This document shows, in pieces, positions 13,071 through 52,913 of a stretch of 53,333 nt of DNA (the first letter of the stretch is position 1; every line of letters starts with the position of its first letter). The stretch is from NCBI GenBank assembly GCA_903881565.1, contig CAIRTR010000115.1, forward strand, positions 1 through 53,333, given 5' to 3'. The DNA comes from Oligoflexia bacterium (GTDB lineage: Bacteria; Bdellovibrionota; UBA1018). Position numbers and translations under genes: made by a program. The notes under the pieces were generated by a model, which was not told the DNA's origin, made no database searches, and was given only the letters and a program-made list of their open reading frames with translations.

Positions 13071-13406
13071 ATGCAAACATCAAAACTAATCCTCGAAGCA
13101 AGCTTGGAACTCAAGGAAGTTGGCCGACTCCTTAGTGAAGCTCGAAAACGGCGAACTTTGTCGATTTCAAAATTGGCTGATCGGATCGGGGTTGATCGCC
13201 GCACCTTGAGCCAGCTCGAAAAGGGCAGTCCTACGGTCTCATTAGGAATCTTCTTTCAAGTTCTGAGCGCCCTACAACTTCTCCGTGGGCTGAGTGAAGC
13301 TCTCAAGCCTGAAAATGATATCGAGGCGATTTCTGCGGCAGTTCGCAGAGCTCGCCGACGTCAGCCCCCCTTAAAGAAAATCAGCGACAAGAAGGTGAAC
13401 TTCTAA
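13071..13406 (+). CDS. hipB: HipB-type helix-turn-helix antitoxin
   Basis: An XRE-family DNA-binding protein of 111 residues. The HTH spans about residues 25-75 and contains LSISKLADRIGVDRRTLSQLEKGSPTV, with the recognition helix in DRRTLSQLE. The basic C-terminal tail (RRARRRQPPLKK) extends past the domain. The product should neutralise HipA and repress its own promoter through the inverted repeat at 13001-13048. Its TAA overlaps the hipA ATG by one base. Confidence 0.88.
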   Translation: MQTSKLILEASLELKEVGRLLSEARKRRTLSISKLADRIGVDRRTLSQLEKGSPTVSLGIFFQVLSALQLLRGLSEALKPENDIEAISAAVRRARRRQPPLKKISDKKVNF

Positions 13407-14698: not shown

Positions 14699-15783
14699 AT
14701 GCCCCACTTTCGACACCGGCATGCCTTGCCTCTTTTTGAGAACCACCTCCAATTCAGCCCTTTGGTAGGAGTGTTCGGTCACCGACAGGTCGGCAAGACG
14801 AGTGCCAAATGTGCCCCCCCTTGTTTCCTGCCCTTAAAGAGTGGGTGCGCAAGCATCCCAAACCTGGACAATTTGTATTGACCGGATCCGTGCGCTTCTC
14901 GAGCCGCAAAGCGATTCGTGAGTCCTTGACCGGGCGTCTGGTAGGCTTGGAACTTTATCCACTCGTTCTTACGGAACTACTGGAGCGCAAACTCCCTGGC
15001 ACACTCCCCTCTATAATGAAGGCCGACACGTTTGATCACGCCTTGCTTCAAGCTTTGCCAAAGCCAAGCCGCACAGAACAGGCCACGTGGGAGAAGTACT
15101 TAGAGCAAGGGGGGCTACCACGACTCGCGTTGACCCGTGATCCCCGTCATCGACTTGATCTGCTGGATTCAATCCTCAAGCTCATCTTAGATCGCGACCT
15201 CCGTATGGTGATCGAAACCCACCTCTCTCTTGAGACATTGCTTAAGTTTTTGCGCTACATTGCGACCCAGGCTTGGGAACCTTTCAACTATTCTGAAGCC
15301 AAACGCATTTTAGGACTCAATGAAGTGACCCAGAAGAAGCTGCTCTTTGGACTTGAATCGATTTTTCTCGTGCGAAGAATCTCGATACAGGGGAAAAGGG
15401 CTACAACTTTTTTACTAGAAGACCAACTTGAGGAGTTCACACTCTCTAATCAGACATTATCATTATCGCGCCAAATCTACGGGGCCCTCTATCGCAATCT
15501 GCGCGCACAGCTGGGTTACCGCTCCGGAACCCTATTTGAGTGTTTTTCTTATCGCCTTAGAAGCGGGGCATGGGTCCCCCTCGTTTTTCGAGCAAACGGC
15601 AAAGAGATTGGCTTTGTGGTCATCGAGGAGGAAACCCCCAATATTGGCCAGATGCGCTCCGCCAGTCGGTTCTTAAGGGACTTTCCGAGCGGAAAAGTGG
15701 TTTTTGTACGGCCGCAAGTTTCTGCACCTGAGATTATCGAAGCACGCATTGTGAGCTGCTCAGCGGCGTCGCTAGTGACTTAA
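14699..15783 (+). pseudogene. AAA/DUF4143 ATPase, internally deleted and frameshifted (copy 2)
   Basis: The N-terminus (MPHFRHRHALPLF, Walker A GHRQVGKTS) matches the intact ATPase at 32163, which starts MPHSRKRHVLPLF. Right after Walker A the reading frame changes at a C7 run (14814-14820) and resumes in another frame at PPLFPALKEWVRKHPKPGQFVLTGS. Compared with the family, about 50-60 residues including Walker B are gone. The rest (sensor, winged helix, C-terminal domain) is uninterrupted to the TAA at 15783. ATPase function must be lost. The C-terminal domain lacks the E-x-K pattern of the other copies. The 5' promoter is still intact, so decay looks recent. Confidence 0.82.
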
Positions 15784-17408: not shown

Positions 17409-18611
17409 ATGGATACCTTTTGGGAAATTAATGGATGGGAAGCTGAAGATAAGCATCTTGGCGCCCTAGATCGCGCCGCTTTTCGCCGCACCTTTCCCGT
17501 CATCAAACCTAGCCCAGGATTGCAAAGTATTCGTGGTCCACGCCAAATCGGAAAAAGCTCATGGCTCAAAACCGTCCTGAGCCAGCAAGTTAAAGCCGGA
17601 AAAAAATGCTTCTTCTACAGCTGCAAAGAGCTTCGCGACTTCAAGGAGCTTTCGGAACTCCTCGCCCCCCTTCGCAGCCATGATGTCATCTTGCTAGACG
17701 AGATCAGTTTCGTCTCAGAGTGGGATCGGGCCATCAAACACATGATCGATTCGGGCTTCAAGGGGAGTTTAATAGTGACAGGCTCGAATGCCTTTGATTT
17801 GAGACAGGGTCTCGATCGCATGCCGGGACGCTGGGCGCAAGAAGGTGGCGTTGGCGGGGGCACTGGAGAGCATCTTCTTTTACCCATGGAGTTTGATGAA
17901 TGGATGTCCATGCGACAGCAAGCGGGCTGGAAGACTTCCGACAGTCTGGTAGAGAATCTTACGGCCTTCTTCAAAATCGGGGGATTTCCCACATGCCTCG
18001 CCGAAGCCGGACCCCAGCTGAAAAATCCTGTGGAATCTAAAACGACCTATCACCGCTGGCTAGTCGGCGACGTGCGCCGCAAGAATCGGCAGGAGATTTT
18101 TCTTCGCGAACTTCTAGGTCAGCTTGCACTCACATCAGGCAGTACGATCAGCTTGCAAACACTCGCTCAGAAGACTCAAATGATGTCTTATCATACCGCC
18201 CAGGAGTACATCACCATTCTCGAGGATTGTTTTGCGCTGCGAACGCTCTACTGCATGGATCCCGAAACAGGTACGATTCGATTCAAAAAAGAAAAGAAGT
18301 TCTACTTCACCGATCCGATCCTCTATTGGATTGCGCTAGATTGGGCCGGGCATCCCACCCCCGAAACATGGCCCGAAAAGATGGCTGAGCAAGTTGCTCA
18401 TGAGTTTCTCGCCAGACGGGCCAAGCGCTTAGGCTACTACTCTTCACCCAAGGGCGAGGTCGATTTTTTTGACCCGAAACGCTGGGCCATCGAAGTGAAG
18501 TGGGCCCCTGTTCCTCGCAATATCTCGCGCGCCTATTTTGACCTTCTCATCCCACGCAAGGTGGTGTGGTCTCAGTCAAACTTTTTGAGTGAGCTACCTG
18601 ATACGCTGTAG
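17409..18611 (+). CDS. AAA ATPase with DUF4143 domain (copy 4)
   Basis: A 400-residue intact member of the AAA_14/DUF4143 group, function unknown. Walker A is GPRQIGKSSWLK (about 43-54), Walker B is DVILLDEISFV (about 91-101), and sensor-1 is LIVTGSNAFDLRQG. A winged-helix region follows (SYHTAQEYITILEDCFALR). The C-terminal nuclease-like motif is EVDFFDPKRWAIEVKW, so D and E-x-K are retained. It belongs to a different subfamily from copies 2 and 5, as it lacks their N-terminal RxRHxLPLF motif. It is followed by a bidirectional terminator at 18646. Confidence 0.85.
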   Translation: MDTFWEINGWEAEDKHLGALDRAAFRRTFPVIKPSPGLQSIRGPRQIGKSSWLKTVLSQQVKAGKKCFFYSCKELRDFKELSELLAPLRSHDVILLDEISFVSEWDRAIKHMIDSGFKGSLIVTGSNAFDLRQGLDRMPGRWAQEGGVGGGTGEHLLLPMEFDEWMSMRQQAGWKTSDSLVENLTAFFKIGGFPTCLAEAGPQLKNPVESKTTYHRWLVGDVRRKNRQEIFLRELLGQLALTSGSTISLQTLAQKTQMMSYHTAQEYITILEDCFALRTLYCMDPETGTIRFKKEKKFYFTDPILYWIALDWAGHPTPETWPEKMAEQVAHEFLARRAKRLGYYSSPKGEVDFFDPKRWAIEVKWAPVPRNISRAYFDLLIPRKVVWSQSNFLSELPDTL

Positions 18612-18701: not shown

Positions 18702-20960
18702 TTAGAAGCTATACGAAGCTGTGATCACAGCCGTATGTGCTTTAAAATTATTGTCGTTGCCAACACCGGTCACTAACAAATCCGGAATCGACGCGCTACT
18801 TGCAGCCGGTACCGTCTTTGCTTGAGATTGGTTCACGTTATAATAGCCATCAAAGAACGTATCGTTATACGTTCTCCACTGGTACGTGTACCCAAGCGAT
18901 GCACTCAGATTCGACGTGATTTCATACTTGGTCGAAATCCGAAATGCTGTCTCAAGATAATTATCCCAGTTTTCGATGTTTTCGCGAGGCACATACACCA
19001 CTGCACCTGTAGAAGTGGTATACGAAACACCCTGAGTACTCGCGGTGTTTAGAGCGATATTACCCTTGTTCTTAGCCTGCTGCCAACCAAAGCCCACAGA
19101 CAGTTTCTTCTCAATGACTGGAACCTCAAAACCAACGCCGTAATCATAAGTCAGAGCCGTTTCATCATAAGTGATCAAATGGCCGTTGACTTGATCATCA
19201 GCGGCATCTGCCGGAGCATTCATCCCCGTAAGAACTGCAGAACCGGCCTGTTTCGAAAGTCTGCGCAGGACGCTATTGGTAGCCCGAGTCCGACCCAAGA
19301 ACGTGTTGACCTTGAACCACCGAGGTAGATCATAAGTGACGTCTGCGAAGTAGCCGATCGTACGATCCTTCTGGCGTCCATACATGATGCCATCTGGATT
19401 GTAGATGCTGCTCTGATAGGTCGTTTCAAAGCCGACTTCCAAATGCTCAATCGGAGTTAAATCAAACCCAGCAGATGCCCGCTCCTGCTTCTTTGCCGTA
19501 ACATCTGTGGCACGATAATAATTTGTGCCAACAGTTTTAGCTTCCCACTCCGCTGAACGTCCCAACTTCTGGTAACGCACATTGAAGTCGATAAAGTCAA
19601 AATAACTGTTTCGAGCCTGAACAAACCAGGTATTATCAATGTTTCTCACACCGTCATCGCGCTCGCGGTGAATGCGAAGAAACTCATAACCAGCTCCGAC
19701 TCTCGTCGCAAACGACAACCGATATCCAGCCTCAGCACCTGCAATGCTCTTATTGTAGGTATAAAGCTCGTTTAGGTAACCCGTGTAGGTACCCGCAGTA
19801 GGCTTTGTTCGGGTTCCTGAGGGATAAGTCACTTCAGTCGACTTATTATACTTCCTCAGGTAGTTTGCATAAAGCTTCGTATCCAGATCAGCAACCGGAT
19901 TCGAAGTCAACGCCAACCCCGCCGCAGCATACGACACATCTCCGACAAAAGTATCCGCACTTGCATTGAGAGTATCCGTCACAGATGCTCCACCGTACCG
20001 AGAATCGCCGTATGGCGTCGCGGTACCAGCGGTCGTTGCCTTCGTATGAGTCCATGTCGCTGGAAGCGCACATGAATTTGTGAGTTTCGAGTAATTCACT
20101 TTCCCAACCAACATCGACTCCAAAGGCAAGTTCTTGTAATTCGCCTGTAGACCGATCTTCTTATACGCGTTATTTGGCGCATTCGAAATCGTTTCAGGAC
20201 TGTCTACTGCAGTGGCGTATGGATTCCTAAAAGTCATCCATTGATTGGCGTTTGAGAAGTTGCTCATAGAGCCGTCCACATTCACTGCCCAATCATTGCC
20301 ACGATAACCCACACCTGCATTAAAGTTATTGGTCGTATAATCTACAGGCTCAGGAATTTCTACACCCTGAGTCGAAGCAATACCACCATTCACACCGATG
20401 ACCTTGATGCCGCTGTCTTTGACCTGATTGAAACCAAGATCAAGTGAATACGGCGCATCGGAAAAGTATGAAGCTTCAACTCCATACTTTTTCTTGGTCG
20501 TCGTGTAATCAAACTTCGTCGTCCAAGAATCCGCATTGGTGGTATCTACAACTGCCGCATCATAAGTCAAAACCCCTGTGCCCACACCCGAAAACAGCGT
20601 CGTGTTGTTTACAGAAGACTTGTGATAGATGCTATCGAAAAACACGTTGTACTTAAACATCCCGTATTTTCCACCACTTAAGCTATAAGACTGATCCTTG
20701 AGCGCAATCCGGCTTGCATCGAAATCAAGATGATAACCATCTTTTTCGGTGCCGACCGATGCCCCTGCCAAGACGCTCTTGCGAACATCCTCGTAAGGTC
20801 TAAACTTTGAACTCTTGGTTTCCGCCCCATTTGAGAGTTGAACCCCCAAATCAGCGTTTCCCGAAAGATCAAAATCACCTAATTTAAGTGCTGCCATCCC
20901 AAGCGTCGTTTGTAAAAACAACGGCGCCGCAATCATTACGTGTCGTATTTTTATGTTCAT
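18702..20960 (-). CDS. mtrB: MtrB/PioB-family outer-membrane porin of a decaheme conduit
   Basis: The family forms a 26-28-strand barrel that holds a decaheme cytochrome across the outer membrane. The product is 752 residues with a signal peptide (MNIKIRHVMIAAPLFLQTTLGMAA), then FDLSGNADLGVQ and many alternating aromatic/polar strands such as YEITSNLSASLGYTYQWRTYN, ending in an outer-membrane C-terminal strand with terminal Phe (HTAVITASYSF). The start has a GAGGAG Shine-Dalgarno sequence. It follows mtrA by 13 nt. It lacks the N-terminal CXXC found in Shewanella MtrB. It would let electrons cross to or from the cell surface. Confidence 0.88.
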   Translation of the reverse strand: MNIKIRHVMIAAPLFLQTTLGMAALKLGDFDLSGNADLGVQLSNGAETKSSKFRPYEDVRKSVLAGASVGTEKDGYHLDFDASRIALKDQSYSLSGGKYGMFKYNVFFDSIYHKSSVNNTTLFSGVGTGVLTYDAAVVDTTNADSWTTKFDYTTTKKKYGVEASYFSDAPYSLDLGFNQVKDSGIKVIGVNGGIASTQGVEIPEPVDYTTNNFNAGVGYRGNDWAVNVDGSMSNFSNANQWMTFRNPYATAVDSPETISNAPNNAYKKIGLQANYKNLPLESMLVGKVNYSKLTNSCALPATWTHTKATTAGTATPYGDSRYGGASVTDTLNASADTFVGDVSYAAAGLALTSNPVADLDTKLYANYLRKYNKSTEVTYPSGTRTKPTAGTYTGYLNELYTYNKSIAGAEAGYRLSFATRVGAGYEFLRIHRERDDGVRNIDNTWFVQARNSYFDFIDFNVRYQKLGRSAEWEAKTVGTNYYRATDVTAKKQERASAGFDLTPIEHLEVGFETTYQSSIYNPDGIMYGRQKDRTIGYFADVTYDLPRWFKVNTFLGRTRATNSVLRRLSKQAGSAVLTGMNAPADAADDQVNGHLITYDETALTYDYGVGFEVPVIEKKLSVGFGWQQAKNKGNIALNTASTQGVSYTTSTGAVVYVPRENIENWDNYLETAFRISTKYEITSNLSASLGYTYQWRTYNDTFFDGYYNVNQSQAKTVPAASSASIPDLLVTGVGNDNNFKAHTAVITASYSF

Positions 20961-20973
20961 TTTATCGCTCCTC

Positions 20974-21876
20974 TTATCGAACAAGATATTTACCGGAGGT
21001 GTACTCTCCGTTGTTTTGAGCGTCATGCGGAGCCATACTGCCATGAATATGATTATGGCAGTTCAAGCAAGCGCGACCAAAAACCTGTTTAAACCGTGTC
21101 GGCTTACCAAATGCTTGGTTACCGTCAGGGTTTGCTCCAGCGCCATGTGCTCCGCTGTGACAATTCTCACAAAGCTGCGGTGCACGTGCGGTCAACAACT
21201 TAGCGTGCTGACTGCCGTGAGGCGTGTGACAAGCGAGACAATTCTCCTCAACCGGAGAATGTTCCCATAAGAATGGACCGCGCTTATCAGCGTGGCACTT
21301 GTAGCAAAGCTGATTGACGTTATCGGCTTTGAGCATACCGTGAGTAGGTGATCCGTGCGGATTGTGACAATCAGCGCAGGAGACCTTACCTTCGATCACA
21401 GGGTGATGCGAACTCTTGTTCAACTGTGACTTGATGTCTTTGTGACAAGCAAGGCAAGTTTCAGCTTTAGGCTTTTCAGCCATTTTGCCACCATGCGTTT
21501 GGTGACAAGAAGCGCAGGAAACGCCGTTTTGCTTATGTTTACCCATCGTCCAGAATTGCAGAGCCTTCATCGTTGCGTGACAGGTCAAGCATTGCTTGGA
21601 TTGAGCTTCAGCACTTTGAGCGGATTTTTTAGCGAAGCTAATAATCGTTTCTTTGCCGCCGCCTGCTTTAATATGAGCATCGGTTGCGCCGTGACATGCT
21701 TCACAGCTGTGGCTATCGCCCCAACTCTTTGCATGATGGCTGCCTTGAAAGGACGTAACTTGTCCTTCATGACATTCTTTACACTTCATTTCTGCGGCCA
21801 CTGCCGATTGTCCGAGGAGTAAAAACCCCACAGCCAATACGGGCAGAAGACCTTTTCTCACGATACTGTTGATCAT
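20974..21876 (-). CDS. mtrA: Decaheme c-type cytochrome, MtrA/DmsE/PioA family
   Basis: Ten CXXCH motifs are present, from CKECH (first) to CLNCH (tenth), in a 300-residue secreted protein with signal peptide MINSIVRKGLLPVLAVGFLL ending near AVAA. The conserved spacing and phrases CADCHNPHG, CYKCHADKRGPFLWEHSPVEENCLACHTPHGS are typical of the MtrA/DmsE group. It would sit inside the MtrB barrel as a heme wire. It is first in the operon with mtrB. I use ATG 21876; a frame extension to 21912 would put charged residues before the signal peptide. No MtrC/OmcA-like surface lipoprotein is adjacent. Confidence 0.93.
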   Translation of the reverse strand: MINSIVRKGLLPVLAVGFLLLGQSAVAAEMKCKECHEGQVTSFQGSHHAKSWGDSHSCEACHGATDAHIKAGGGKETIISFAKKSAQSAEAQSKQCLTCHATMKALQFWTMGKHKQNGVSCASCHQTHGGKMAEKPKAETCLACHKDIKSQLNKSSHHPVIEGKVSCADCHNPHGSPTHGMLKADNVNQLCYKCHADKRGPFLWEHSPVEENCLACHTPHGSQHAKLLTARAPQLCENCHSGAHGAGANPDGNQAFGKPTRFKQVFGRACLNCHNHIHGSMAPHDAQNNGEYTSGKYLVR

Positions 21877-22275
21877 GTTTGGTATCCCCCTACCTACGTT
21901 AAGAAATTTCACTCACCCTTTTATACTGAGTCTCACTCTTTCCTGAGTTCCATGAAAACACACACATCTGCGCAAAACCCTATAAAACAAGGGCAATACG
22001 CAACATAAAAGTGGTAATTATGGGAAACAAGAAAGAGTAAGACGCAGGTCAAAGAGCGAATGCTTAAAATAAAACCTTGTACTAATGTAAAGAAGTCTAC
22101 TTGAGCTGTTTGGCATGCGCAAACGAATTATGACATTACCGTGACAATTGGGGATGCGGCGCACCAAGGGCGTATGCTTTATGGCGTGAACAGTGGGCCT
22201 GGCGCCATTTTTTTGATGGAACAATAACCCCTATATCTATGATAAAGTAACCGAAGATGTAAGTGGAGGCCGATA
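21877..22275. other. 399-bp intergenic spacer, mtrA upstream region
   Basis: No ORF with coding character is visible. It must contain the mtrAB promoter (minus strand), for which a -10-like TATAAA lies about 55 nt before the mtrA ATG without an obvious -35, and the promoter of the decayed toxin gene (plus strand, a -10-like TATGAT near 22237). A terminator-like hairpin at 22181-22214 is listed separately. The rest is AT-rich and featureless to me. Confidence 0.6.
22181..22214 (+). terminator. Terminator-like hairpin with T7 run, orphan
   Basis: ATGGCG (22181-22186) pairs with CGCCAT (22203-22208), followed at once by a run of seven T (22208-22214). It resembles a rho-independent terminator on the plus strand, but no plus-strand gene precedes it, so it could end an unannotated small RNA or be a chance structure. 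Confidence 0.3.
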
Positions 22276-29189: not shown

Positions 29190-30131
29190 CTAGCGGCCCT
29201 TTTTGTTTTCCACCGGCTTCAAGCGGTCGTATTTTTTGAGCGTGTGGCACGCGGCAGTACAACCTCCGCCATTGGTATTTGGCTCATATTTCATCGGAAT
29301 CTCGAATTCACGGTATACCGTCTTTGTCCGAATCAGTTTTGGCCCCTTGCTTGCGTGAAGCTCATGACAAACGCGACAACTGCGGCCGCCCCACTTCTTG
29401 GCTTGCCTGATATGAAAAAAATGCATATTCCGTTTCCCATTTCGAAACCCCGTCTCTTCGCTGACCGTCTCCTTTGTAATCAGAGCGGCATCATGACAGC
29501 TAAAACAAAGCGCGAACTCTTTTTCATCAAAGGGGAGATAATTCTTATCAGTGAACTTCTCTTTCAAAAGCGTTCGATTAGCGCCTCCGTGCGGCTGATG
29601 ACAGCCAAGACAATCCGTTACAGGAGGATGTTGATTTTCATTCTCTTTTAACAAGGTCTCCATGGCATCATGGCAGCCAAAACAAAGCTTCGGAACTTCG
29701 ACTTTAAGCAGTTTTCCTTGGGCAGAGTGATGGGGATCGTGACAAGCCGTACACCCCGAATCCACCACAGCAGAATGGGGACTGACTGCCTTCTTGATTG
29801 TCTCGGCAATTCCGTCATGACACATCAAGCAGGTTTCATTTGCCTGAGGGAAACTCAGGGGCTTGAATACAGCGTGCCCGGTTGGCAACTTACTTTTCTT
29901 GGACTTTTCTGGGGACTTATCTGCGGATTTTTCGGGCTTTGCACCCTCATCCGCCACATGGCAGGTTTCGCATTCCCCCCCTTTTACGGGAGGATGCACG
30001 ACCTTACCCACGGCAATGGAGCCGTGACACTTTGAAGTGGTACACGAGGGCTTCTCGCCTGCAGCAAAGGCCAACGAAGACGCCCCCACACCCAGCCCCA
30101 TACTCAGAATGACGCTAATGACTTTAAGCAT
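29190..30131 (-). CDS. Nonaheme periplasmic cytochrome c with atypical heme motifs
   Basis: A 313-residue exported cytochrome (signal peptide MLKVISVILSMGLGVGAS...AFA). It has seven CXXCH motifs (CETCH, CLMCH, CTACH, CFGCH, CLGCH, CFSCH, CRVCH), plus CTTSKCH (CX4CH) near residue 30 and CTAACH (CX3CH) near residue 297. Doubled-CXXCH repeats with HPP/HxPH spacings place it with cytochrome c3-like/doubled-CXXCH proteins. A Lys/Ser/Glu-rich linker (PEKSADKSPEKSKKSK) separates two heme groups. It is divergent from the 17-heme cytochrome and shares its 162-bp spacer. Longer N-terminal extensions are open but lack a signal sequence. Confidence 0.85.
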   Translation of the reverse strand: MLKVISVILSMGLGVGASSLAFAAGEKPSCTTSKCHGSIAVGKVVHPPVKGGECETCHVADEGAKPEKSADKSPEKSKKSKLPTGHAVFKPLSFPQANETCLMCHDGIAETIKKAVSPHSAVVDSGCTACHDPHHSAQGKLLKVEVPKLCFGCHDAMETLLKENENQHPPVTDCLGCHQPHGGANRTLLKEKFTDKNYLPFDEKEFALCFSCHDAALITKETVSEETGFRNGKRNMHFFHIRQAKKWGGRSCRVCHELHASKGPKLIRTKTVYREFEIPMKYEPNTNGGGCTAACHTLKKYDRLKPVENKKGR

Positions 30132-30271: not shown

Positions 30272-30293
30272 ACTCGCTTTTTTGGAGGCGCCA

Positions 30294-32051
30294 ATGCATT
30301 TTCTCAAAATTTCTCTCCTCGTTATCACCACCCTTTCATTTTCGCTTTTTTCCCCTTCAGGCTTCGCATCTGAATCCAAAGGAGCACCTCACGCGGTAAG
30401 CGATGCGGTCAAAAATGAAAACTGCTTCAAATGCCACTTCGAATCCGAGAATGAAAAAGTCCACAATCCAGCGGCAATGACCAGTGAGGATGTTCACTCA
30501 GAAGCCGGGATCACCTGTTCCAACTGCCACGGTGGCAATCCTGCCGCGACTCAAGGCAGAGACGCTCACAAAGATACCTTTATCGCAAAACCAACCCCCG
30601 ATTCCGTTTCAAAGCTCTGCGGAAAATGCCATGAAAAACCACTGGCGAGCTGGCTGACCGGTCCCCATGGTCGAGTCTCCAAGCAACCCCGACAACCCAA
30701 TTGCGTGACCTGCCATGGAGCCCACGGAGTGGCCCGTGCCTCCGTTGAACTCATTGGAGATCCCCTTTGCTCAAGCTGCCATCCGATTGCGCAAGCACGC
30801 CGAATTTATAAAGCACTTTACGATGCTGAAATTTCGCTCAACGAGACTCACTCGCTCCTCTCTACCGCCAGCGACGCCACCAAAGAAAAACTCGGAAATT
30901 TTGATTCACTGATCAAGAGCACTCGGTCCAACCTTCGTGGACTTGCCCACGGCCTGGATCTTTTCGCCATCACAAGGCAGGCCTCAGAAGCCATCAAAGT
31001 TTCCGAAGAAACCAAAGCAAAGGCGCTCCCGAGATTAGGGGGCCTTAAGTGGGGAACATTCTTTCGCTGGGCGGGCATCATCGTCGGTGCTCTCTTCGCG
31101 CTTCTCGGAGTCATGTGGTCCGTGCGCTTTTTATGGCATAGACGCCATCACGTCCCGATGCCTAAGGGGCGGGATCTTAAAATCCTTCTCATCGCTGGCA
31201 GCATTCTCGGTTTGACGGGGATCGTGATCGCCTGGCGCGGCTTTCATTATATTGAGCATGATCCGAAATTCTGCACGTCCTGCCACACCATGGGTGCCGC
31301 TTTCGCATTGTGGGAAAAAAGTGCACACAAAAACGTAGAATGCCATGCCTGCCACAAAGCTGACATTGCCTCCAACCTTCATCAACTCTGGTTTTATACC
31401 ACTCGCAGACCCGATGAAGTTTCCAAGCACGCGTTTGTCGACAAGGGCACTTGCTTAAGTTGCCACACCAAAGAAGGCAACAAATCCAAATGGAATCAAA
31501 TCATGGAGACGGCAGGACACAAGTTCCATGTGAGCCAACGAAACATTGAGTGCATTCAATGCCACGCCGTGAGCGTCCACAAATTCCTCCCCCAAAAGGA
31601 TCTCTGCGTGGGATGCCACAAAAAGACCACTCTATCGGCCGCAGGGAAAATGGCTGAAATGCACTGCCTGCAGTGCCACAATTTTACAGTGGCTGATGCG
31701 AAAAAGACACTGCGACCTGACCGCTCCGCTTGCCTCGAATGTCATGAGAGCATGCAGATTAAAAAAGAAGTCTTCCCGAAAAACGCTCCGATGCAATGGG
31801 CTTGCGGAGAATGTCACAAACCTCACAAGAAGCTCATCATTGGCAAGAGCGACTGTAAAGGATGCCACACAGACATCAAGAAAGGCATTCACAGCATCAG
31901 CTCGCATACCGAGTGCCTCGATTGCCACAAGCCGCATGGCTGGAAAGTCACAGATCGCAAAACGTGCGAAGCCTGCCACAGCGATCGCGAAAAACACAAC
32001 CCCGGAATCGTCTGCGCCGAGTGCCACAACGCGAAGACGAAAGGGTTTTAG
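30294..32051 (+). CDS. 17-heme membrane cytochrome with NapC/NirT-like core (ImcH-like)
   Basis: The 585-residue product has a signal peptide (MHFLKISLLVITTLSFSLFS), five N-terminal CXXCH hemes (CFKCH to CSSCH), a helical spacer, two membrane segments (about 250-280 and 292-312), then YIEHDPKFCTSCHTMG...WEKSAHKNVECHACHKAD, which is the NapC/NirT quinol-dehydrogenase signature, followed by ten more CXXCH motifs to CAECH near the end. I count 17 in total. NapC-family proteins move electrons between the quinone pool and periplasmic cytochromes; ImcH of Geobacter is a member. The extra heme domains make this one unusually large. ATG 30294 follows GGAGG. Confidence 0.85.
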   Translation: MHFLKISLLVITTLSFSLFSPSGFASESKGAPHAVSDAVKNENCFKCHFESENEKVHNPAAMTSEDVHSEAGITCSNCHGGNPAATQGRDAHKDTFIAKPTPDSVSKLCGKCHEKPLASWLTGPHGRVSKQPRQPNCVTCHGAHGVARASVELIGDPLCSSCHPIAQARRIYKALYDAEISLNETHSLLSTASDATKEKLGNFDSLIKSTRSNLRGLAHGLDLFAITRQASEAIKVSEETKAKALPRLGGLKWGTFFRWAGIIVGALFALLGVMWSVRFLWHRRHHVPMPKGRDLKILLIAGSILGLTGIVIAWRGFHYIEHDPKFCTSCHTMGAAFALWEKSAHKNVECHACHKADIASNLHQLWFYTTRRPDEVSKHAFVDKGTCLSCHTKEGNKSKWNQIMETAGHKFHVSQRNIECIQCHAVSVHKFLPQKDLCVGCHKKTTLSAAGKMAEMHCLQCHNFTVADAKKTLRPDRSACLECHESMQIKKEVFPKNAPMQWACGECHKPHKKLIIGKSDCKGCHTDIKKGIHSISSHTECLDCHKPHGWKVTDRKTCEACHSDREKHNPGIVCAECHNAKTKGF

Positions 32052-32162: not shown

Positions 32163-33356
32163 ATGCCCCATTCTCGTAAACGCCACGTTTTGCCGCTGTT
32201 TCTGAGCCGTCTAAAACTGTCTCGTGTTATAGCCGTCCAAGGGTGTCGGCAGTCCGGGAAGAGTTATTTTTCAAAAAAGATCCTAACTCAAGAGTTACCG
32301 GGGGCATTATACCGCACTTTTGACAATGCGGATGAATATCACCTCGCCCAAGACGCTCCGGATTCGTATTTAGCCCAATATACTCAATCGAAACCTCTCA
32401 TTATTGATGAGGCCCAAAAATCAGCCTCAATATTTGATGCGGTAAAGTTTCGAGTCGATGAGAATCCAAGACCAGGTCAGTATGTCCTCCTAGGATCAAC
32501 AGAGTTCAGTAAATTATTAAGAATCCGCGAAACCCTCACGGGAAGAATGAGCCGCATTCGGCTTTTTTCTATGAATTTGGCGGAAGCAAATGAAAAGCCA
32601 CTCCTCCATACTCCGAAGGATGACCTCATTCACCTCTTCAAAGAAAAACCCAGATTTTCGAGAGAGATCCTCATACGGCATCTCGAACGTGGCGGTTTCC
32701 CCGGAATCTTTCACATTCGCGAGAAAGGCGCTTTTGAAGATCTGCTAAGAGATTGGATTGACCTAACTGTTTTTCGCGATCTGCACCAGTTCCCAAACAT
32801 CAAAATTGATTCTTCTTTGGCGTTTGAGGTCCTTCAGCGCCTTGCCACACTTGAGGAACCCACTGCCGCCGAAGTTGCTAAGGCAACAAGACGAGACACC
32901 CGGGTCATTCAAAGAATCCTCAACCTCCTAGAAGTCCTCTTCGTGGTACATAAAATAGCACCGCTATCTTTAGGGACAGGAAAACCCCGCTATTTTCTCT
33001 GCGATGTTTCGCTCGTTTCGTATTTTCATGGAACTTTTGAGAGAAAATTGACTACCTGGTTAATTCACGAACAACTCTCTCAACGATCCTATTTAGATGA
33101 TCGAGACCACCAGCTTTTTTATTACCGAACGACAAAAGGGAGCATCATTGATCTTGTCATTGTGAATGCGCGAACACAGAAGATCAAAACCGCCATAAAG
33201 ACTCTCGGCAAAGAGCGCTTGGATCGAAGAGAGCTCGAAGTCTTAAAGGCCTTTAGCAAAAAGCTGAAGGGTGAAAATCCTAAGCTTATCCTTTTCGGCT
33301 CCACCCGATATCGCGAAAAAGAGTTTGAAATTTTTCCTTGGGAGTCGTTGGGATAG
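32163..33356 (+). CDS. AAA ATPase with DUF4143-type domain (copy 5)
   Basis: A 397-residue intact ATPase of the same subfamily as pseudogene copy 2 (shared RxRHxLPLF start). Walker A is GCRQSGKSYFSK, Walker B is KPLIIDEAQKS, and sensor-1 is VLLGSTEFSK, followed by LRIRETLTGR. The winged-helix segment is ATRRDTRVIQRILNLLEVL. The C-terminal nuclease-like motif is degenerate: SIIDLVIVN...AIKTL has no E-x-K, unlike copies 1 and 4. It sits between cytochrome genes with no functional link to them, consistent with a recent insertion. Function unknown. Confidence 0.85.
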   Translation: MPHSRKRHVLPLFLSRLKLSRVIAVQGCRQSGKSYFSKKILTQELPGALYRTFDNADEYHLAQDAPDSYLAQYTQSKPLIIDEAQKSASIFDAVKFRVDENPRPGQYVLLGSTEFSKLLRIRETLTGRMSRIRLFSMNLAEANEKPLLHTPKDDLIHLFKEKPRFSREILIRHLERGGFPGIFHIREKGAFEDLLRDWIDLTVFRDLHQFPNIKIDSSLAFEVLQRLATLEEPTAAEVAKATRRDTRVIQRILNLLEVLFVVHKIAPLSLGTGKPRYFLCDVSLVSYFHGTFERKLTTWLIHEQLSQRSYLDDRDHQLFYYRTTKGSIIDLVIVNARTQKIKTAIKTLGKERLDRRELEVLKAFSKKLKGENPKLILFGSTRYREKEFEIFPWESLG

Positions 33357-33418: not shown

Positions 33419-33703
33419 TTACTTAGCTTCGTGTTTCGCGTGGCAATCTACGCAAGCTTTTTTGCCTTTGAATTCTTTATCGCCAATCTTGCCTTCTTGT
33501 TTTGCCATACCATCAACCATGGCTTGAACCTTATCGCTGAATTTTTTGTCCTTTGGCGCGCCAACGTGGCAGGTTTTGCAATTCACTTTGCCAGCAGCAT
33601 CTTTATCAAGACTTTCTTTGTACACTTTCATGATCGGCATATTTGCAAAAGCAAGACCGGAAACCAGCATCGACACAGCAGCGAGCAACATTATTTTTTT
33701 CAT
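33419..33703 (-). CDS. Small diheme periplasmic cytochrome c
   Basis: A 94-residue protein with a signal peptide (MKKIMLLAAVSMLVSGLAFA) and two CXXCH motifs (CKTCH and CVDCH near the end), giving a mature protein of about 75 residues. It has the lysine-rich character of small c7/c3-like electron shuttles, but with two hemes rather than three. It could carry electrons between inner-membrane complexes and the MtrA conduit. A good AAAGGG Shine-Dalgarno sequence precedes ATG 33703. Its spacer with the divergent tetraheme gene is 242 bp. Confidence 0.85.
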   Translation of the reverse strand: MKKIMLLAAVSMLVSGLAFANMPIMKVYKESLDKDAAGKVNCKTCHVGAPKDKKFSDKVQAMVDGMAKQEGKIGDKEFKGKKACVDCHAKHEAK

Positions 33704-33945
33704 GGAGTAAACCCTTTCGTTAGTTATCAATTAATAGTTCAACACATGGAACTCGCGCGCGCTCTAGAACAACAAGTTCGAGCAAGGTCCGCTTACAACT
33801 CAAATTTTAAAGCTGAGTTCTTGTCGGTATCTTAATACTAAAGTTTAGGAAAATGTGAGACAAAATTTCACTTTCTCTTGTATTTTTCCCAAAGTTCTAT
33901 AAAAGTTTTCCCTTCAACAACAAAAGAAGCTGGGAAACTCGGATA

Positions 33946-34479
33946 ATGCTAATAAATCCATTGGTTTTTGTATTCATAGCCTTACTATCTTGCAATGCGC
34001 AGCAAGCGACAGCGGCAGATGACGCTGGGTTTTCCCCGGACGACGTTCAAACCCCGCTAGCGCCTCTTTCGGCGGGAATTTTCCCCTGCTCGAATTGCCA
34101 TAGTGGGATGCCCGTCAACATGAAGCGACGTCAATTAAAAGACGAACATACCGGGATTGTTTTTGAGCACGACCCTGCCCATCGCTGGTGCATGGATTGC
34201 CACAATCCTTCAAACCGCGACAAGTTACGTCTAGCGAGTGGCGCGCTTGTGGATTTCTCAAAGTCTTATCTACTTTGTGGCCAATGCCACGGCCCTACTT
34301 TCCGTGATTGGAAATCGGGGATCCACGGGAAACGCACCGGAATGTGGAACGGCAAGAAACGCTATTATCTTTGCGTTCATTGCCACAACCCCCACTCACC
34401 TAAAGTTAAACAGCTCGTGCCGTTTCCGGCACCCCAGCCCCCTAAGGGCGAACCTTCTTTTCTCGGAGGAACTAAATAA
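33946..34479 (+). CDS. Tetraheme cytochrome c subunit of module 1
   Basis: A 177-residue exported protein with a signal peptide (MLINPLVFVFIALLSCNAQQ, possibly a lipobox-like LLSC) and four CXXCH motifs: CSNCH, CMDCH, CGQCH and CVHCH. The phrase LCGQCHGPTFRDWKSGIHGK is typical of cytochromes that partner NrfD/HmcB-type complexes. It overlaps the next gene by TAATG, so it is a subunit of the same complex. The upstream region has a -10-like TATAAA near 33900 but no clear -35. Confidence 0.85.
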   Translation: MLINPLVFVFIALLSCNAQQATAADDAGFSPDDVQTPLAPLSAGIFPCSNCHSGMPVNMKRRQLKDEHTGIVFEHDPAHRWCMDCHNPSNRDKLRLASGALVDFSKSYLLCGQCHGPTFRDWKSGIHGKRTGMWNGKKRYYLCVHCHNPHSPKVKQLVPFPAPQPPKGEPSFLGGTK

Positions 34480-35606
34480 TGGATACGAAAATTCCTCCAA
34501 AGCCAGTCAGTCGGCGTAAGTTTCTGGAGTCAGCCGCAACTTTGACAGCGGCGATGGTACTTCCGGGCGTGATGGGCTGCACGACCGAGAATATTGACGA
34601 GTTCCTGCAAAAACACTTTGTAGAACTTTCTCCTGCGGAACTTGAAAAAGTCGTCAAGAGAATGCAAAAGCAAAATGAGAAAAAATACGGAAAAGCGGGC
34701 AGCATTGACGCCACCCCCGCGATACCCGGTGTTTTATTTGGCTATGGACTGGACATTTCTCGCTGCATCGGCTGCCGTCGCTGCGTTCATGCCTGCGTAA
34801 AGGAAAACAACCAAAGCCGCGATCCTGACATCCAGTGGATTCGCGTGCTCGAATTCAACAAGGAGAGTGGTATTGATTTCGCCGAAGCCGATCCTTACTA
34901 CTGCACGACGGCAAGCCTGCATGACAAAGAGGCAAGCCACCATCTAGGAGAGAAAAAAGAAGGCGAAGCACATGGCAAGGCTGCGCCTGTTGCTGTTCCT
35001 TCTGCAGATGCTCCCATGAAACTTTCTCCGGTTCAAAAATCCATTCTTGAAAATCCGGATTCGCAGTATCCTTTATATCAAGTCGATGCGAACAAAGTGC
35101 CCGCGAGTGATCCGGCCTGCAAAGTTCCCAGACCCGGACACTTCTATGTGCCTGTCGCCTGTCAGCAATGTGAAAACCCTCCCTGCGTTAAGGTTTGCCC
35201 GGTTAAAGCAACATGGAAAGATCCCGATGGAATCGTGGTCATTGATTACAACTGGTGCATCGGCTGCCGCTACTGCATGGCCGCATGCCCCTACGGTGCA
35301 CGTCATTTTAATTGGACCGAGCCGAAGCTTCCGGCTGAAGACTTCAATCCAGACACCCATTACCTAGGCAACCGTCCTCGCCCACGCGGCGTGGTCGAAA
35401 AATGCACGTTCTGCATTCAACGCACACGCAAGGGTCAGTATCCGGCTTGCGTCGAGATTTGTCCGGTCGGAGCCCGAAAATTTGGGAACCTTCTGGATCC
35501 GGCCAGCGAAATTCGCCAGATCATGGAGCGCAAGCGCGTTTTGATTCTAAAAAATGAATTAAATACAAAGCCGAAATTCTTCTACTTCTACGGGACCGCC
35601 ACATGA
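34479..35606 (+). CDS. 4Fe-4S ferredoxin-type subunit with Tat signal, module 1
   Basis: A 375-residue HmcB/NrfC/DmsB-like protein that is exported folded: the twin-arginine motif is SRRKFLESA. Four Fe-S cluster sets are visible: CIGCRRCVHAC, CQQCENPPCVKVCP, CIGCRYCMAACP, and CTFC with CVEICP. A long insert of about 100 residues, rich in Ala, His and Lys, lies between the first and second sets. It passes electrons between NrfD and the tetraheme cytochrome. It overlaps its upstream neighbour by one base and the NrfD gene by ATGA. No molybdopterin subunit is associated. Confidence 0.9.
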   Translation: MDTKIPPKPVSRRKFLESAATLTAAMVLPGVMGCTTENIDEFLQKHFVELSPAELEKVVKRMQKQNEKKYGKAGSIDATPAIPGVLFGYGLDISRCIGCRRCVHACVKENNQSRDPDIQWIRVLEFNKESGIDFAEADPYYCTTASLHDKEASHHLGEKKEGEAHGKAAPVAVPSADAPMKLSPVQKSILENPDSQYPLYQVDANKVPASDPACKVPRPGHFYVPVACQQCENPPCVKVCPVKATWKDPDGIVVIDYNWCIGCRYCMAACPYGARHFNWTEPKLPAEDFNPDTHYLGNRPRPRGVVEKCTFCIQRTRKGQYPACVEICPVGARKFGNLLDPASEIRQIMERKRVLILKNELNTKPKFFYFYGTAT

Positions 35607-36811
35607 CAAATATCTTTGGTTTTATCAAATTCTGTTTGGGTTTATGGACTCGCGGTGGGCGTTATTATTGGGCCTGGGTTTCATTCTTGTGCCTCCTCAT
35701 TATTTCGGGGGTATTGGCCTATTCAAACCAACTTGAATACGGCCTAGGTCTCACGAATATGCGGGATTCCATTTCCTGGGGATTCTATATCGGAAACTTC
35801 ACGTTCCTGGTCGGCGTGGCTGCGGCTGCCGTCATGCTCGTCATCCCCGCTTACGTTTATCACTGGGAACCCATCAAAGAAGTGGCCCTGCTCGGTGAAA
35901 TGCTTGCTGTCAGTGCGCTCGTCATGTGCATGCTCTTTGTAACCGTGGATATTGGCCGCCCTGATCGCATCACCCATTTGATGCCCTTCTTAGGGAGCCC
36001 GAATTTTCCTCGCTCCCTTCTCGCCTGGGACGTTTTGGTGCTAAACGTCTACTTCATTCTCAATCTTACGATTGTTGCTTACATATTATTCACCGGCTAC
36101 ACGGGACGACCTTACAAAAAGGCGATTCTCATTCCGTTGGTCCTTTTTTCGATCCCGGCCGCGATCTCAATTCACACGGTTACCGCGTTTTTATATAATG
36201 GTATTGCCGCCCGTCCTTATTGGAACGCCTCAATTTTGGCCCCTCGGTTTTTGGCCTCTGCCTTTTGCTCAGGGCCTGCCATTCTTTTGATGTTATTTCA
36301 AATCTTGCGCAAAGTTGCCGGTCTTCGGATTAAGGATACTGCCCTTGCGAAAATCGCCGAGTTAATGTCTTATGCGATGTTCATCAATCTCTTCCTGCTC
36401 GGCGCGGAAGTATTTAAAGAATACTATTCAAATACTGAACACCTGATCTACACCCAAGTTCTCTTCTTTGGCGTGGGCGATACTAAAGTCCACTACTTCA
36501 TGTGGCCCGCTTTGATCGCAAGCATCGTCGCGTTTCTTCTTTTTCTTATTCCCAAAACCCGAAACAATCCGTTGACGATGAATATCGGCTGCGTCTTGAT
36601 TTTCATTGGGGTTTACACCGAAAAAGGAATGGGACTCGTCATTCCAGGACTCACACCAGATACGCTCGGTGAAATCTATGTATACTCCCCTAGCCTTCTC
36701 GAATATCGCGTGGCCGCGGGGGTCTTTTCGGTGGGATTTCTGGTTTTCACTCTGCTCGTGAAACTCGCTATCCCTTACATGGAAAAAAGCCACGCTCATC
36801 ACGCTGCCTAA
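35603..36811 (+). CDS. NrfD-family quinone-interacting membrane subunit, module 1
   Basis: A 402-residue integral membrane protein with about ten segments. NrfD/DsrP/ActC-type motifs are present: VTVDIGRPDRITHLMP and IHTVTAFLYNGIAARPYWN. Family members bind menaquinone at the periplasmic side and exchange electrons with the Fe-S partner. ATGA overlap with the Fe-S gene fixes the partner. The C-terminus is His-rich (MEKSHAHHAA). Confidence 0.9.
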   Translation: MTNIFGFIKFCLGLWTRGGRYYWAWVSFLCLLIISGVLAYSNQLEYGLGLTNMRDSISWGFYIGNFTFLVGVAAAAVMLVIPAYVYHWEPIKEVALLGEMLAVSALVMCMLFVTVDIGRPDRITHLMPFLGSPNFPRSLLAWDVLVLNVYFILNLTIVAYILFTGYTGRPYKKAILIPLVLFSIPAAISIHTVTAFLYNGIAARPYWNASILAPRFLASAFCSGPAILLMLFQILRKVAGLRIKDTALAKIAELMSYAMFINLFLLGAEVFKEYYSNTEHLIYTQVLFFGVGDTKVHYFMWPALIASIVAFLLFLIPKTRNNPLTMNIGCVLIFIGVYTEKGMGLVIPGLTPDTLGEIYVYSPSLLEYRVAAGVFSVGFLVFTLLVKLAIPYMEKSHAHHAA

Positions 36812-36922: not shown

Positions 36923-37675
36923 TTGAAAACAGGTAAAATCCCGCAACAAGTAGTGGTTTTGAGTTTAATTTCCCTTGTCGTCATCGTCAGTTTTTTTACG
37001 ATGCGATTTATTTTAACACCTAAATCGTTCGGCAAATATGGCCATTATCGCGCCGATGCCATCGATGACGTTAAAAATTTGCCCATCAGCTATGCAGGGG
37101 CAAAGGCTTGTGGCGATTGTCATGATGAGATCGTCAAACTAAAATCCAAAGGTTTTCACCGCGGAGTCTCCTGTGAAGTCTGTCACGGCCCCTCTGCTGG
37201 CCACACTGAAGATCCTACCTCCATCAAACCCGAGGCCCCAAGGCAACGTGAAGGCTGTCCTTTGTGCCATAACTACAGTCCTTCGAGGCCAACAGGGTTC
37301 CCACAGATTATTACTGCACAACACAATCCTGGAAAACCTTGCATGACCTGTCACAGGCCACATAATCCAGTGCCACCCGTGACCCCCAAAGACTGCAGCG
37401 CATGCCATCGAAGCATTTCGGCTCAAAAAATGGTTTCGAGACATGCCCCATTGGAATGCACGACGTGCCATAGCGTTCCTAAAGAGCACTTCAAGAATCC
37501 CCGTTTTGTCAGAGTCGAAAAACCAACGACTAACGAATTCTGCGGCAAATGCCATTCGAGCGATGCTAAAGCTCAAGCTAACCTTCCCCCCATTCCTCGA
37601 ATTGACGTCGAGAAGCATGCGGGAAGATATTTATGCTGGGATTGCCACTACCCCCATTCTCCGGAGGCAAAATGA
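36923..37675 (+). CDS. Octaheme cytochrome c with N-terminal membrane anchor, module 2
   Basis: A 250-residue protein with one N-terminal membrane segment (VVVLSLISLVVIVSFFTMRF), without a clear cleavage site, then eight CXXCH motifs: CGDCH, CEVCH, CPLCH, CMTCH, CSACH, CTTCH, CGKCH and CWDCH. The start is TTG 36923, supported by GTGGAGG 6 nt before it; an ATG inside the membrane segment is unlikely. It overlaps the next gene by ATGA. It is the electron-accepting or donating partner of the second Fe-S/NrfD pair. Confidence 0.85.
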   Translation: MKTGKIPQQVVVLSLISLVVIVSFFTMRFILTPKSFGKYGHYRADAIDDVKNLPISYAGAKACGDCHDEIVKLKSKGFHRGVSCEVCHGPSAGHTEDPTSIKPEAPRQREGCPLCHNYSPSRPTGFPQIITAQHNPGKPCMTCHRPHNPVPPVTPKDCSACHRSISAQKMVSRHAPLECTTCHSVPKEHFKNPRFVRVEKPTTNEFCGKCHSSDAKAQANLPPIPRIDVEKHAGRYLCWDCHYPHSPEAK

Positions 37676-38487
37676 GTAACGACATCAAGAACAACGAAGA
37701 GACTAAAACCAACAAAGTCCTGGATCGCCGAGAATTCTTGGACTGGTGCCTCAAGGCCGTTCCCGCGGGACTAACCATGACTGCCTGTGGTTTTTCAGCA
37801 GGCGAGCTCAATGCGGATGAAGGGAAGAAACATCCTGCCGTTAACGAAAGCCAGGCAGAAGCCAACTACGCCATGGCGATTGACATAGCCAAGTGCATCG
37901 GATGCGGTCGCTGCGCCAACGCCTGCAAAAAAGAAAATAAAGTTCCTGACGGACCTCATACGGTTCGTACTTGGGTGGAGCGCTATGTGATCCCTCGCGA
38001 GGGTGAGACAATGGTGGATAGCCCAAATGCTGGGATTAATGGTTTCCCCGAACTTCCAGAAAACACCGATATCCTCAAGAGTTTCTTCGTTCCGAAGCTT
38101 TGCAACCATTGCTCGAACCCTCCTTGTGTTCAGGTTTGTCCGGTCGGCGCGACTTTTCAGACCAAGGATGGCGTAATTCTGGTTGACGAAAAATACTGTG
38201 TGGGTTGTCGCTACTGCGTGCAAGCCTGCCCCTATGGCGCGCGCTACATCCACCCTACTAAGAATGTCGCTGATAAGTGCACCTTTTGTTATCACCGCAT
38301 TACCAAAGGACTCCTTCCTGCTTGCGTAGAAGTATGCCCCACCCAAGCCCGAATCTTTGGTGATCTGAAGAAGATCAGCAGTCCGATTCATCGATTCTTA
38401 CGATTCCATCCCATTAAAGCACTCAAGCCCGAGCTCAACACTCGGCCTAAGGTATTTTATGCAAACGCCGACCAAGAGGTGAGATAA
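37672..38487 (+). CDS. 4Fe-4S ferredoxin-type subunit, module 2
   Basis: A 271-residue paralogue of the module 1 Fe-S subunit. The N-terminus has a Tat-like DRREFLDWCL followed by TMTACG, which could be a lipobox. Cluster sets are CIGCGRCANAC, CNHCSNPPCVQVCP, CVGCRYCVQACP, and CTFC with CVEVCP, again four sets. The C-terminal tail ELNTRPKVFY matches the module 1 tail ELNTKPKFFY, so the two modules are related by duplication or shared origin. CGGAGG precedes the ATG, which overlaps the octaheme stop. Confidence 0.9.
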   Translation: MSNDIKNNEETKTNKVLDRREFLDWCLKAVPAGLTMTACGFSAGELNADEGKKHPAVNESQAEANYAMAIDIAKCIGCGRCANACKKENKVPDGPHTVRTWVERYVIPREGETMVDSPNAGINGFPELPENTDILKSFFVPKLCNHCSNPPCVQVCPVGATFQTKDGVILVDEKYCVGCRYCVQACPYGARYIHPTKNVADKCTFCYHRITKGLLPACVEVCPTQARIFGDLKKISSPIHRFLRFHPIKALKPELNTRPKVFYANADQEVR

Positions 38488-38490
38488 CTC

Positions 38491-39696
38491 ATGGAACCCG
38501 CCATTCAACAAGTTGTAGCTGCACTCGAACCCTTCACCGGATACATTTATCCCAATGAGTATTACCTGCAGTGGGAACTGCTCATTGTCCTCTATCCGTA
38601 TCTCACGGGACTCGTAGCCGGAGCCTTTATCTTGGCCTCTCTCGAACGGGTTTTCCACGTGAAGGCCCTTCTTCCTGTTTACCGACTTGCACTGCTGAGC
38701 GCGCTTGCGTTTCTCATCGCAGCGCCGCTTCCGCTGATGTCGCACTTGGGACATCCAGAACGAGCCTGGGAGATGTTGGTGACCCCTCATACAACCTCAG
38801 CAATGGCAATGTTCGGTTTTGTCTATGCCTGGTACCTACTCGTGGTCCTGCTGCTTGAGATCTGGTTTGATTATCGCGTCGATATTATCAAGCTCTCCAA
38901 TGAAAAAACGGGCTTCATGAAACTCGTTTATAAAGTCTTGACCTTGGGAACGACTGACGTTTCGCCAGAAGCGGTCAAATTTGATGACAAAGTCGGCAAA
39001 TTCATCACCGTCGTCGGGATTCCTTCGGCTTTTATGCTCCACGGCTACGTGGGTTTCATCTTTGGATCTATTAAGGCCAACCCTTGGTGGAGTTCCGTTT
39101 TGATGCCGGTGGTGTTCCTTTTTTCAGCCATCGTTTCGGGCATGGCCATGGTGATGTTGATCTATATGGTTACTTCCTGGGTTCGCTGGAAAACCATCGA
39201 CATGGCTTGCGTAAACAAGCTGGCTGAGTTTCTCATTTATGTGATGCTCGTGGACTTCACCCTTGAGTTCCTGGATTTTATTCATCGTCTCTATGAGTCT
39301 GAAGAATCCATTCAAATCCTCTCGCAACTGATCACGGATCGATTGTTTATCAGTTTGATCCTGCTGCAGGTATTGATGGGCGGCCTGGTTCCGCTGGTGG
39401 GATTGCTTGTAGCTCGCTTTGGAAAGTTTCCAGATGAGATGCGCAAAATGTTTTATTTCGTCTGCGGCGTCCTCATTCAAGTGGGAATCTTCAGTATGCG
39501 TTGGAACGTGGTAATCGGCGGCCAGATGTTCTCCAAGAGTCTCCGCGGTCTAACCGTCTACAAAGTTCATTTGTTAGGCTTAGAGGGATTGCTCATGGCA
39601 ATCGTCCTGCTTGTCCTACCCTTGGTAGTTCTTGCAGTTCTATTGAAACTACTCCCTCCATGGCTCGCAGAAAAACAAGAGCAGAAGACTGCCTAG
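38491..39696 (+). CDS. NrfD-family quinone-interacting membrane subunit, module 2
   Basis: A 401-residue multi-spanning protein. It keeps the NrfD features (LMSHLGHPERAWEML, and FMLHGYVGFIFGSIKANPWW) but differs strongly from module 1. It starts 3 nt after the Fe-S gene stop. The stop overlaps the stop of the convergent rfaE1 gene by 4 nt (39693-39696), leaving no space for a terminator. It ends the plus-strand electron-transfer run. Confidence 0.9.
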   Translation: MEPAIQQVVAALEPFTGYIYPNEYYLQWELLIVLYPYLTGLVAGAFILASLERVFHVKALLPVYRLALLSALAFLIAAPLPLMSHLGHPERAWEMLVTPHTTSAMAMFGFVYAWYLLVVLLLEIWFDYRVDIIKLSNEKTGFMKLVYKVLTLGTTDVSPEAVKFDDKVGKFITVVGIPSAFMLHGYVGFIFGSIKANPWWSSVLMPVVFLFSAIVSGMAMVMLIYMVTSWVRWKTIDMACVNKLAEFLIYVMLVDFTLEFLDFIHRLYESEESIQILSQLITDRLFISLILLQVLMGGLVPLVGLLVARFGKFPDEMRKMFYFVCGVLIQVGIFSMRWNVVIGGQMFSKSLRGLTVYKVHLLGLEGLLMAIVLLVLPLVVLAVLLKLLPPWLAEKQEQKTA

Positions 39697-52815: not shown

Positions 52816-52829
52816 TAGACGATCGGGTA

Positions 52830-52855
52830 GGCCGACCCAGTTGCCCAGATCGACC
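52830..52855 (-). ncRNA. Group II intron domain VI hairpin
   Basis: On the minus strand GGTCGATCTGG, loop GCAA, CTGGGTCGGCC pairs over 11 bp with several G-U wobbles. It has the right size and position 8 nt after domain V. The branch-point A is not certain. Confidence 0.65.
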
Positions 52856-52863
52856 CCGCCACG

Positions 52864-52896: not shown

Positions 52897-52913
52897 TTCA
52901 GAATGGAATCCTA

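Follow-up and report, generated by a model that had tools for sequence, protein, structure and literature searches.

The 53,333-nucleotide stretch of Oligoflexia bacterium DNA analysed here (the window) encodes, in one gene, a cytochrome with 17 heme-binding motifs in which an N-terminal pentaheme part, a membrane hairpin, an NrfH-type tetraheme core and an octaheme extension follow one another in a single chain. It is confirmed as a real single gene of a conserved family, and profile matches show its core to be of the NrfH type. The step from the quinone pool to the periplasmic hemes is the bottleneck of extracellular electron transfer as well as its best genomic marker, and to our knowledge the solutions for it are few: CymA, ImcH, CbcL and CbcBA. 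A conserved fusion of an NrfH core with two heme arms, in a set of genomes that encode an MtrAB conduit together with an NrfD module, would be an added candidate for this step. In our preferred reading, in which we place about even confidence, the protein would act as the inner-membrane electron hub of an extracellular-electron-transfer chain, the point at which electrons enter it being left open.

A single open frame of 585 codons plus a stop (30294–32051, forward strand) gives a protein of 585 amino acids (Table 1), and complete homologs begin at about the same position. Its 17 CXXCH motifs start at residues 44, 75, 109, 137, 159, 327, 350, 387, 420, 438, 458, 480, 504, 521, 541, 558 and 574, compared with a mean of 0.14 and a maximum of 3 in 10,000 shuffled versions of the protein. 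All 34 cysteines are inside these motifs, with none to spare, and the protein contains neither CX3CH nor CX4CH motifs. Five CXXCH motifs precede the two hydrophobic segments and twelve follow them. The order proposed by an earlier sequence-only reading (five hemes, two membrane segments, then a NapC-like part with the rest of the hemes) is the one that we see, with 5 + 12 CXXCH motifs around a hairpin; of its ‘eleven or twelve’ later hemes we count twelve, the NapC-like part proper comprising hemes 6–9 and hemes 10–17 forming an extension. The AlphaFold2 model of the full-length protein is poor (mean pLDDT 46.8), helices 253–285 and 293–322 being its best-scored part, and a model of the core (pLDDT 71) gave no match when compared with the PDB. 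The loop between the two membrane helices is basic in all four fused proteins described below. Because of the signal peptide and this basic loop, the hairpin should keep both heme parts in the periplasm, following the positive-inside rule. An arrangement with the two halves on opposite sides of the membrane, raised earlier as an objection, is not supported, as the signal peptide and the hairpin predict both to be outside.

Table 1. Position of the 17-heme gene, its parts and neighbouring electron-transfer genes in the window.
Feature	Position	Strand	Basis or remark
MtrB/PioB outer-membrane porin	18702..21044	-	PF11854, 1e-62
MtrA/DmsE-family decaheme cytochrome	20974..21912	-	TIGR03508, 239.3 bits (cut-off 192.2)
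Divergent periplasmic 7-heme cytochrome	29190..30131	-	Likely start near 30131, inferred from signal peptide
Ribosome-binding site of the 17-heme gene (GGAGG)	30284..30288	+	Sequence; a few bases 5' of the ATG
17-heme cytochrome gene, 585 aa	30294..32051	+	Frame, motif count, segment prediction
Signal peptide, about residues 1–26 (MHFLKISLLVITTLSFSLFSPSGFAS)	30294..30371	+	Sequence, hydrophobic segment; cleavage site inferred
N-terminal pentaheme part, hemes 1–5, residues 44–163	30423..30782	+	CXXCH motifs; resembles first half of DmsE/MtrA-family decaheme
Heme-free helical linker, residues 164–252 (about 90)	30783..31049	+	AlphaFold2 model and sequence; related to linker of 9-heme cytochromes beside Rieske/cytochrome b
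Membrane helix 1, about residues 253–285, predicted periplasm to cytoplasm	31050..31148	+	Hydrophobicity, AlphaFold2; basic residues after helix (RFLWHRRHHVPMPKGRDLK)
Membrane helix 2, about residues 293–322	31170..31259	+	AlphaFold2; aligns with NrfH anchor helix
NrfH-type tetraheme core, hemes 6–9, residues 327–429	31272..31580	+	CTSCHTM at heme 6, His after heme 9 (CHAVSVH)
Octaheme extension, hemes 10–17, residues 438–578	31605..32027	+	Alignment with homologs, CXXCH motifs
Small diheme cytochrome	33419..33730	-	Similar small diheme gene beside NrfD module in G135 and G035
Tetraheme cytochrome, first NrfD module	33946..34479	+	65–68% identical in all three other fusion carriers
Fe–S protein with Tat-type leader, first NrfD module	34479..35606	+	DsrO-like, 191.6 bits (cut-off 200)
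NrfD-type membrane subunit, first NrfD module	35603..36811	+	DsrP, 402.7 (cut-off 350); 73% identical in G133
Second module: multiheme cytochrome c, Fe–S protein, NrfD subunit	36923..39696	+	Family profile matches

We searched 369 genomes of the host phylum and 296 of one other phylum. Within the 369, profile and homolog searches found the same 5-heme/hairpin/12-heme order in three further genomes (G135, G133 and G361, the last at locus L026), with 50–52% identity to the window protein over the full length, as the sequence-only reading had suggested looking for. The G135 and G133 proteins have 582 amino acids and 17 hemes each; the G361 copy has its signal peptide cut off by the contig start, carries 15 hemes and then ends. 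The four carriers belong to three families (f1, f15 and f10). A scan of the genome collection with exact peptide patterns returned only L026 and one weak Bacteroidales match, and plasmid records contained no relatives of the 17-heme protein. The carriers are all fragmented draft genomes, apparently MAGs, and unfused relatives exist for each half, both of which would suit a merge of two adjacent genes during sequencing or assembly, the other objection raised earlier. Such a merge is untenable because four separately assembled genomes of three families carry the fusion, with the junction (linker and both helices) conserved at the protein level; these homologs with the same domain order rule it out, and we give it practically no chance. 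In a tree of the 12-heme unit the four fused proteins group weakly (61/67) and the unfused proteins moderately (91/93). The fusion probably arose once, judging from the shared N-terminal half; the tree itself does not show it.

The pentaheme part (residues 42–168) matches TIGR03508, the DmsE/MtrA decaheme family, at 4e-14, with 52.7 bits against a cut-off of 192.2 and 127 of the 258 positions covered, which leaves the protein outside that family. A profile of the N-terminal half picks up proteins with nine hemes in G133 and G134 (1.2e-14 and 2.2e-13, respectively) and 11-heme proteins in many genomes of a Bacteroidales MAG's phylum (to 5.5e-17); the matched proteins close with a helical linker followed by one membrane helix. 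When the hemes are left out, the linker and helix alone place the proteins of G134 and G133 at the top of 534 ORFs, if weakly (9e-4 and 3e-3). The 9-heme gene of G133 (L119) adjoins Rieske and cytochrome b genes and the anchored cytochrome gene of L115 a cytochrome b gene, as assigned by Pfam, and the L122, L116 and L120 loci are similar by sequence appearance. It should be noted that these anchored cytochromes stand next to cytochrome b apparently in place of cytochrome c1, and that they are common in the Bacteroidales MAG's phylum; in Geobacter, bc-type clusters with multiheme cytochromes are known (PMC2825233). The simplest history of the 17-heme gene would be that a C-anchored multiheme cytochrome (five hemes, a helical linker and one helix) fused to an N-anchored 12-heme NrfH/NapC-like protein, after which the two anchors would have paired as a hairpin. 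The protein would then illustrate how the joining of two anchored cytochromes at their anchors can leave the topology of both parts unaltered.

The NapC/NirT-type core recognized by the sequence-only reading is borne out: residues 300–429 match the NrfH model TIGR03153 at 1.7e-12 (47.6 bits for the window protein, curated cut-off 134.2), a match found in all four fused members, and the helix with the first two hemes of the core matches chain C of the NrfH structure 2j7a at 1.4e-9. With PF03264 the whole protein scores 20.1 bits (cut-off 24.1), and the helix-plus-two-heme part 27.3 in a six-frame search. When 11 tetraheme NrfH-like proteins from the phylum are aligned with the window protein, hemes 6–9 are in register with NrfH hemes 1–4, and helix 2 and hemes 6–9 supply the anchor helix and four in-register CXXCH motifs by which NapC/NirT–NrfH proteins are recognized. 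The Cys and His residues of these hemes, Trp340, Ser343, His345 and the His after heme 9 are invariant in all 19 fused, unfused and tetraheme sequences.

The residues associated with a quinone site are partly preserved. The CXXCHXM motif, which in NrfH binds the menaquinol-side heme (PMC8840924), is present at heme 6 (CTSCHTM) in all four fused proteins and lost in all four unfused paralogs; a histidine near this site (His363) is likewise kept in 4/4 fused proteins and not in the unfused ones. On the other hand, a lysine after the second heme, found in 11/11 tetraheme relatives, is replaced by Asp, Asn, Asn and Tyr in the fused proteins and by Thr in the unfused proteins, and the nine-residue loop before it is missing from all four fused proteins. 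The missing residue probably occupies the position of Lys91 in CymA, and a lysine in this region of CymA is essential for the interaction with quinone, according to a paper title that PMC12285233 cites. With CXXCHXM retained but the lysine lost, direct quinol oxidation by the 17-heme protein is plausible at most: the core is of the NrfH type, and the role of quinol dehydrogenase is a putative one.

In each of the four carriers there is, besides, an unfused 12-heme paralog with a single helix (L002/L077, L029/L076, L073:6034-6969 and L075:3158-4096). It aligns with the C-terminal half over all twelve hemes at about 39% identity, the extension of hemes 10–17 being common to both proteins in all four genomes. 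The heme-1 motif of the paralogs reads CMLCHAS, CSQCHKT or CALCHKT (twice). In all four genomes the paralog adjoins a gene for a protein with seven hemes and a cytochrome b domain, which could oxidise quinol for it, whereas the fused protein, which retains CXXCHXM, is without such a partner domain. In the sequences, the strongest reason to ascribe a separate function to heme 6 is that the motif is kept in the fused proteins and lost in paralogs with a cytochrome b neighbour, and the paralog offers a natural comparison for what a quinone site needs. The L073, L075, L076 and L077 loci share a conserved set consisting of a small two-helix protein, the 7-heme cytochrome b and the 12-heme NrfH-like protein; in L073, L075 and L076 a sensor kinase and a response regulator also belong to it.

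Two cytochrome c/Fe–S/NrfD modules (33946–36811 and 36923–39696) start about 1.9 kb downstream of the 17-heme gene; the first may be a complex of its own. In G133 no more than about 7 kb separates its counterpart (73% identity for NrfD and 64% for the cytochrome c) from the fused gene, and this interval holds the 12-heme paralog, the 7-heme cytochrome b gene and a two-component pair. The tetraheme cytochrome of this module is found at at least 65% identity in five of the 369 phylum genomes, including all four fusion carriers (hypergeometric 7e-9, a figure that overstates the association since the carriers are partly related); the fifth, G035, is without the fusion in this search. The window further contains an MtrB porin and an MtrA-type decaheme side by side (18702–21912, reverse strand), forming a porin–cytochrome conduit. 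MtrB scores above the cut-off in three of the four carriers versus 13 of the 369 phylum genomes, and the same search found none in G361. Co-occurrence with the cytochrome c/Fe–S/NrfD module, together with the MtrA–MtrB conduit in the window, is the best functional lead.

Other genes accompany this region. Cytochrome c maturation genes (ResB-like and a CcsA-type cytochrome c assembly protein) lie at 9484–12806 (reverse strand) and a HipA-like gene at 13406–14623. Four AAA_14 genes are interspersed among the cytochromes, at 8170–9345 (reverse strand) and at 14809–15783, 17409–18611 and 32163–33356 (forward strand); three carry DUF4143 and one directly follows the 17-heme gene. At 52822–52898 (reverse strand) lies a group II intron domain (RF00029, 48.5 bits).

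If the protein is an electron hub, electrons would be drawn from the menaquinol pool, at heme 6 itself or by way of the neighbouring cytochrome c/Fe–S/NrfD complexes, and would travel through the heme arms to periplasmic cytochromes and the MtrA–MtrB conduit. The gene itself, its heme count and domain order, the homologies, the conservation and the co-occurrence are observed here; we infer the periplasmic topology, the heme loading, the direction of flow, the quinone reaction and the partners of the protein. We count for the hub the 17 CXXCH motifs without a spare cysteine, the conserved architecture, the basic loop, the match to NrfH, the retained CXXCHXM, the N-terminal match to cytochromes linked to Rieske/cytochrome b, the co-occurrence with the NrfD module and the presence of MtrA/MtrB in the window. 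Against it we count the absent lysine and loop, the PF03264 score below the cut-off for the protein, the failure to find MtrB in G361 and structure models that are poor or without a PDB match. A bolder form, towards which we are inclined to be sceptical, is that of a single-chain conductor from quinol to the periplasm: electrons from menaquinol would enter at an NrfH-type site without the usual lysine and leave through two separate heme arms (5 + 12), one on each side of the hairpin in the chain. Were it true, one chain would replace several separate carriers of the known extracellular-electron-transfer chains.

The missing lysine and loop would suit a heme wire that is tethered to the membrane but has no quinone site, in which NrfD modules, or a CbcL-like cytochrome b elsewhere in the genome, oxidise quinol and the 17-heme protein only relays electrons. 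The strong NrfD-module co-occurrence, with proximity in both the window and G133, fits such a relay, as does the unfused paralog, which has lost CXXCHXM and in each of the four genomes has a 7-heme cytochrome b gene as its neighbour. Yet CXXCHXM and His363 are kept in every fused protein and not in the unfused ones, which suggests selection on the heme 6 site, and we regard the relay as a real but somewhat doubtful alternative. Since its nearest characterized relative is NrfH, we may wonder whether the protein instead anchors one periplasmic terminal reductase and donates electrons to it in the manner of NrfH, the additional hemes serving as a longer docking arm; however, neither an NrfA-type nor another recognized reductase was seen beside the gene in the window, G133 or G135 loci, where the neighbours are electron-transfer modules, and this is unlikely. 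A flow in the opposite direction, with the protein reducing quinone in a chain that takes up electrons, for example by oxidising Fe(II), is conceivable in that MtrAB/PioAB-type conduits and CymA/CbcL-type proteins work both ways (PMC6295460), but the sequence holds nothing that sets a direction, and we find this slightly less probable still.

Compared with NrfH and NapC/NirT proteins (PF03264, TIGR03153, 2j7a), the fused protein has the same anchor helix followed by a tetraheme core, with CXXCHXM at the first heme and the conserved Trp, Ser and His residues and the His after the fourth heme, but adds eight hemes at the C-terminal end, five at the N-terminal end and another membrane helix, and is without the quinone-site lysine and loop. 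The unfused paralogs align with it over all twelve hemes at the identity given above and differ in having a single helix, no N-terminal pentaheme, no CXXCHXM and a cytochrome b neighbour. The 9- and 11-heme anchored cytochromes (L119, L122, L115, L116 and L120) resemble its N-terminal half in heme part, linker and C-terminal helix, although they carry 9–11 hemes rather than five, their chain ends after the helix and the heme-free similarity is weak.

Many-heme NapC-like proteins are not unique to this fusion. A 361-residue NapC-like protein (L117) has nine CXXCH motifs without the N-terminal fusion. One of 597 residues (L006, G061:C102) has 13 CXXCH and two CX3-4CH motifs, is also without the fusion and adjoins a 5-heme multi-helix protein. 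Another, of 686 residues with 17 CXXCH, one helix and a CPTCHYM motif (L118:2201-4261, G641:C1), is flanked on one side by a cytochrome-b-like membrane protein and on the other by a multiheme cytochrome. This L118 protein, from the Bacteroidales MAG's phylum, shares with the fusion the NapC/NrfH core, a long multiheme tail and the retained CXXCHXM, but all of its 17 hemes follow the single helix, its tail is only about 27% alike and it has no N-terminal fusion. The range of about 4–7 hemes that the sequence-only reading gave for known NapC/NirT and ImcH proteins is too narrow, given NapC-like proteins with 9, 13 and 17 motifs here and ImcH homologs with 6–10.

ImcH of Geobacter is likewise an inner-membrane multiheme protein with a NapC/NirT-like part, but has three N-terminal helices, a CX3CH motif and, among its homologs, 6–10 heme motifs (PMC6295460), with none before the membrane part; the 17-heme protein, with a signal peptide, two internal helices and no CX3CH or CX4CH, is not an ImcH. 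CbcL, MtrH and MtoC also place an N-terminal multiheme part before a membrane part, CbcL homologs carrying 3–23 heme motifs and a cytochrome b domain (PMC6295460), but this membrane part is a six-helix b-type cytochrome and not an NrfH hairpin; the 17-heme protein, with two helices only and no cytochrome b domain according to Pfam, does not belong with them. Geobacter also has a 5-heme/12-heme pair, GSU2937/GSU2935 (ExtKL/ExtM), a selenoprotein-type cytochrome and a predicted extracellular protein (PMC5877670, PMC13194489). We found no prior description of the pentaheme–hairpin–NrfH–octaheme arrangement in the literature (open-licence papers). The building blocks are known, and what is new is their combination: an N-terminal pentaheme arm, a hairpin, an NrfH core and an octaheme extension.
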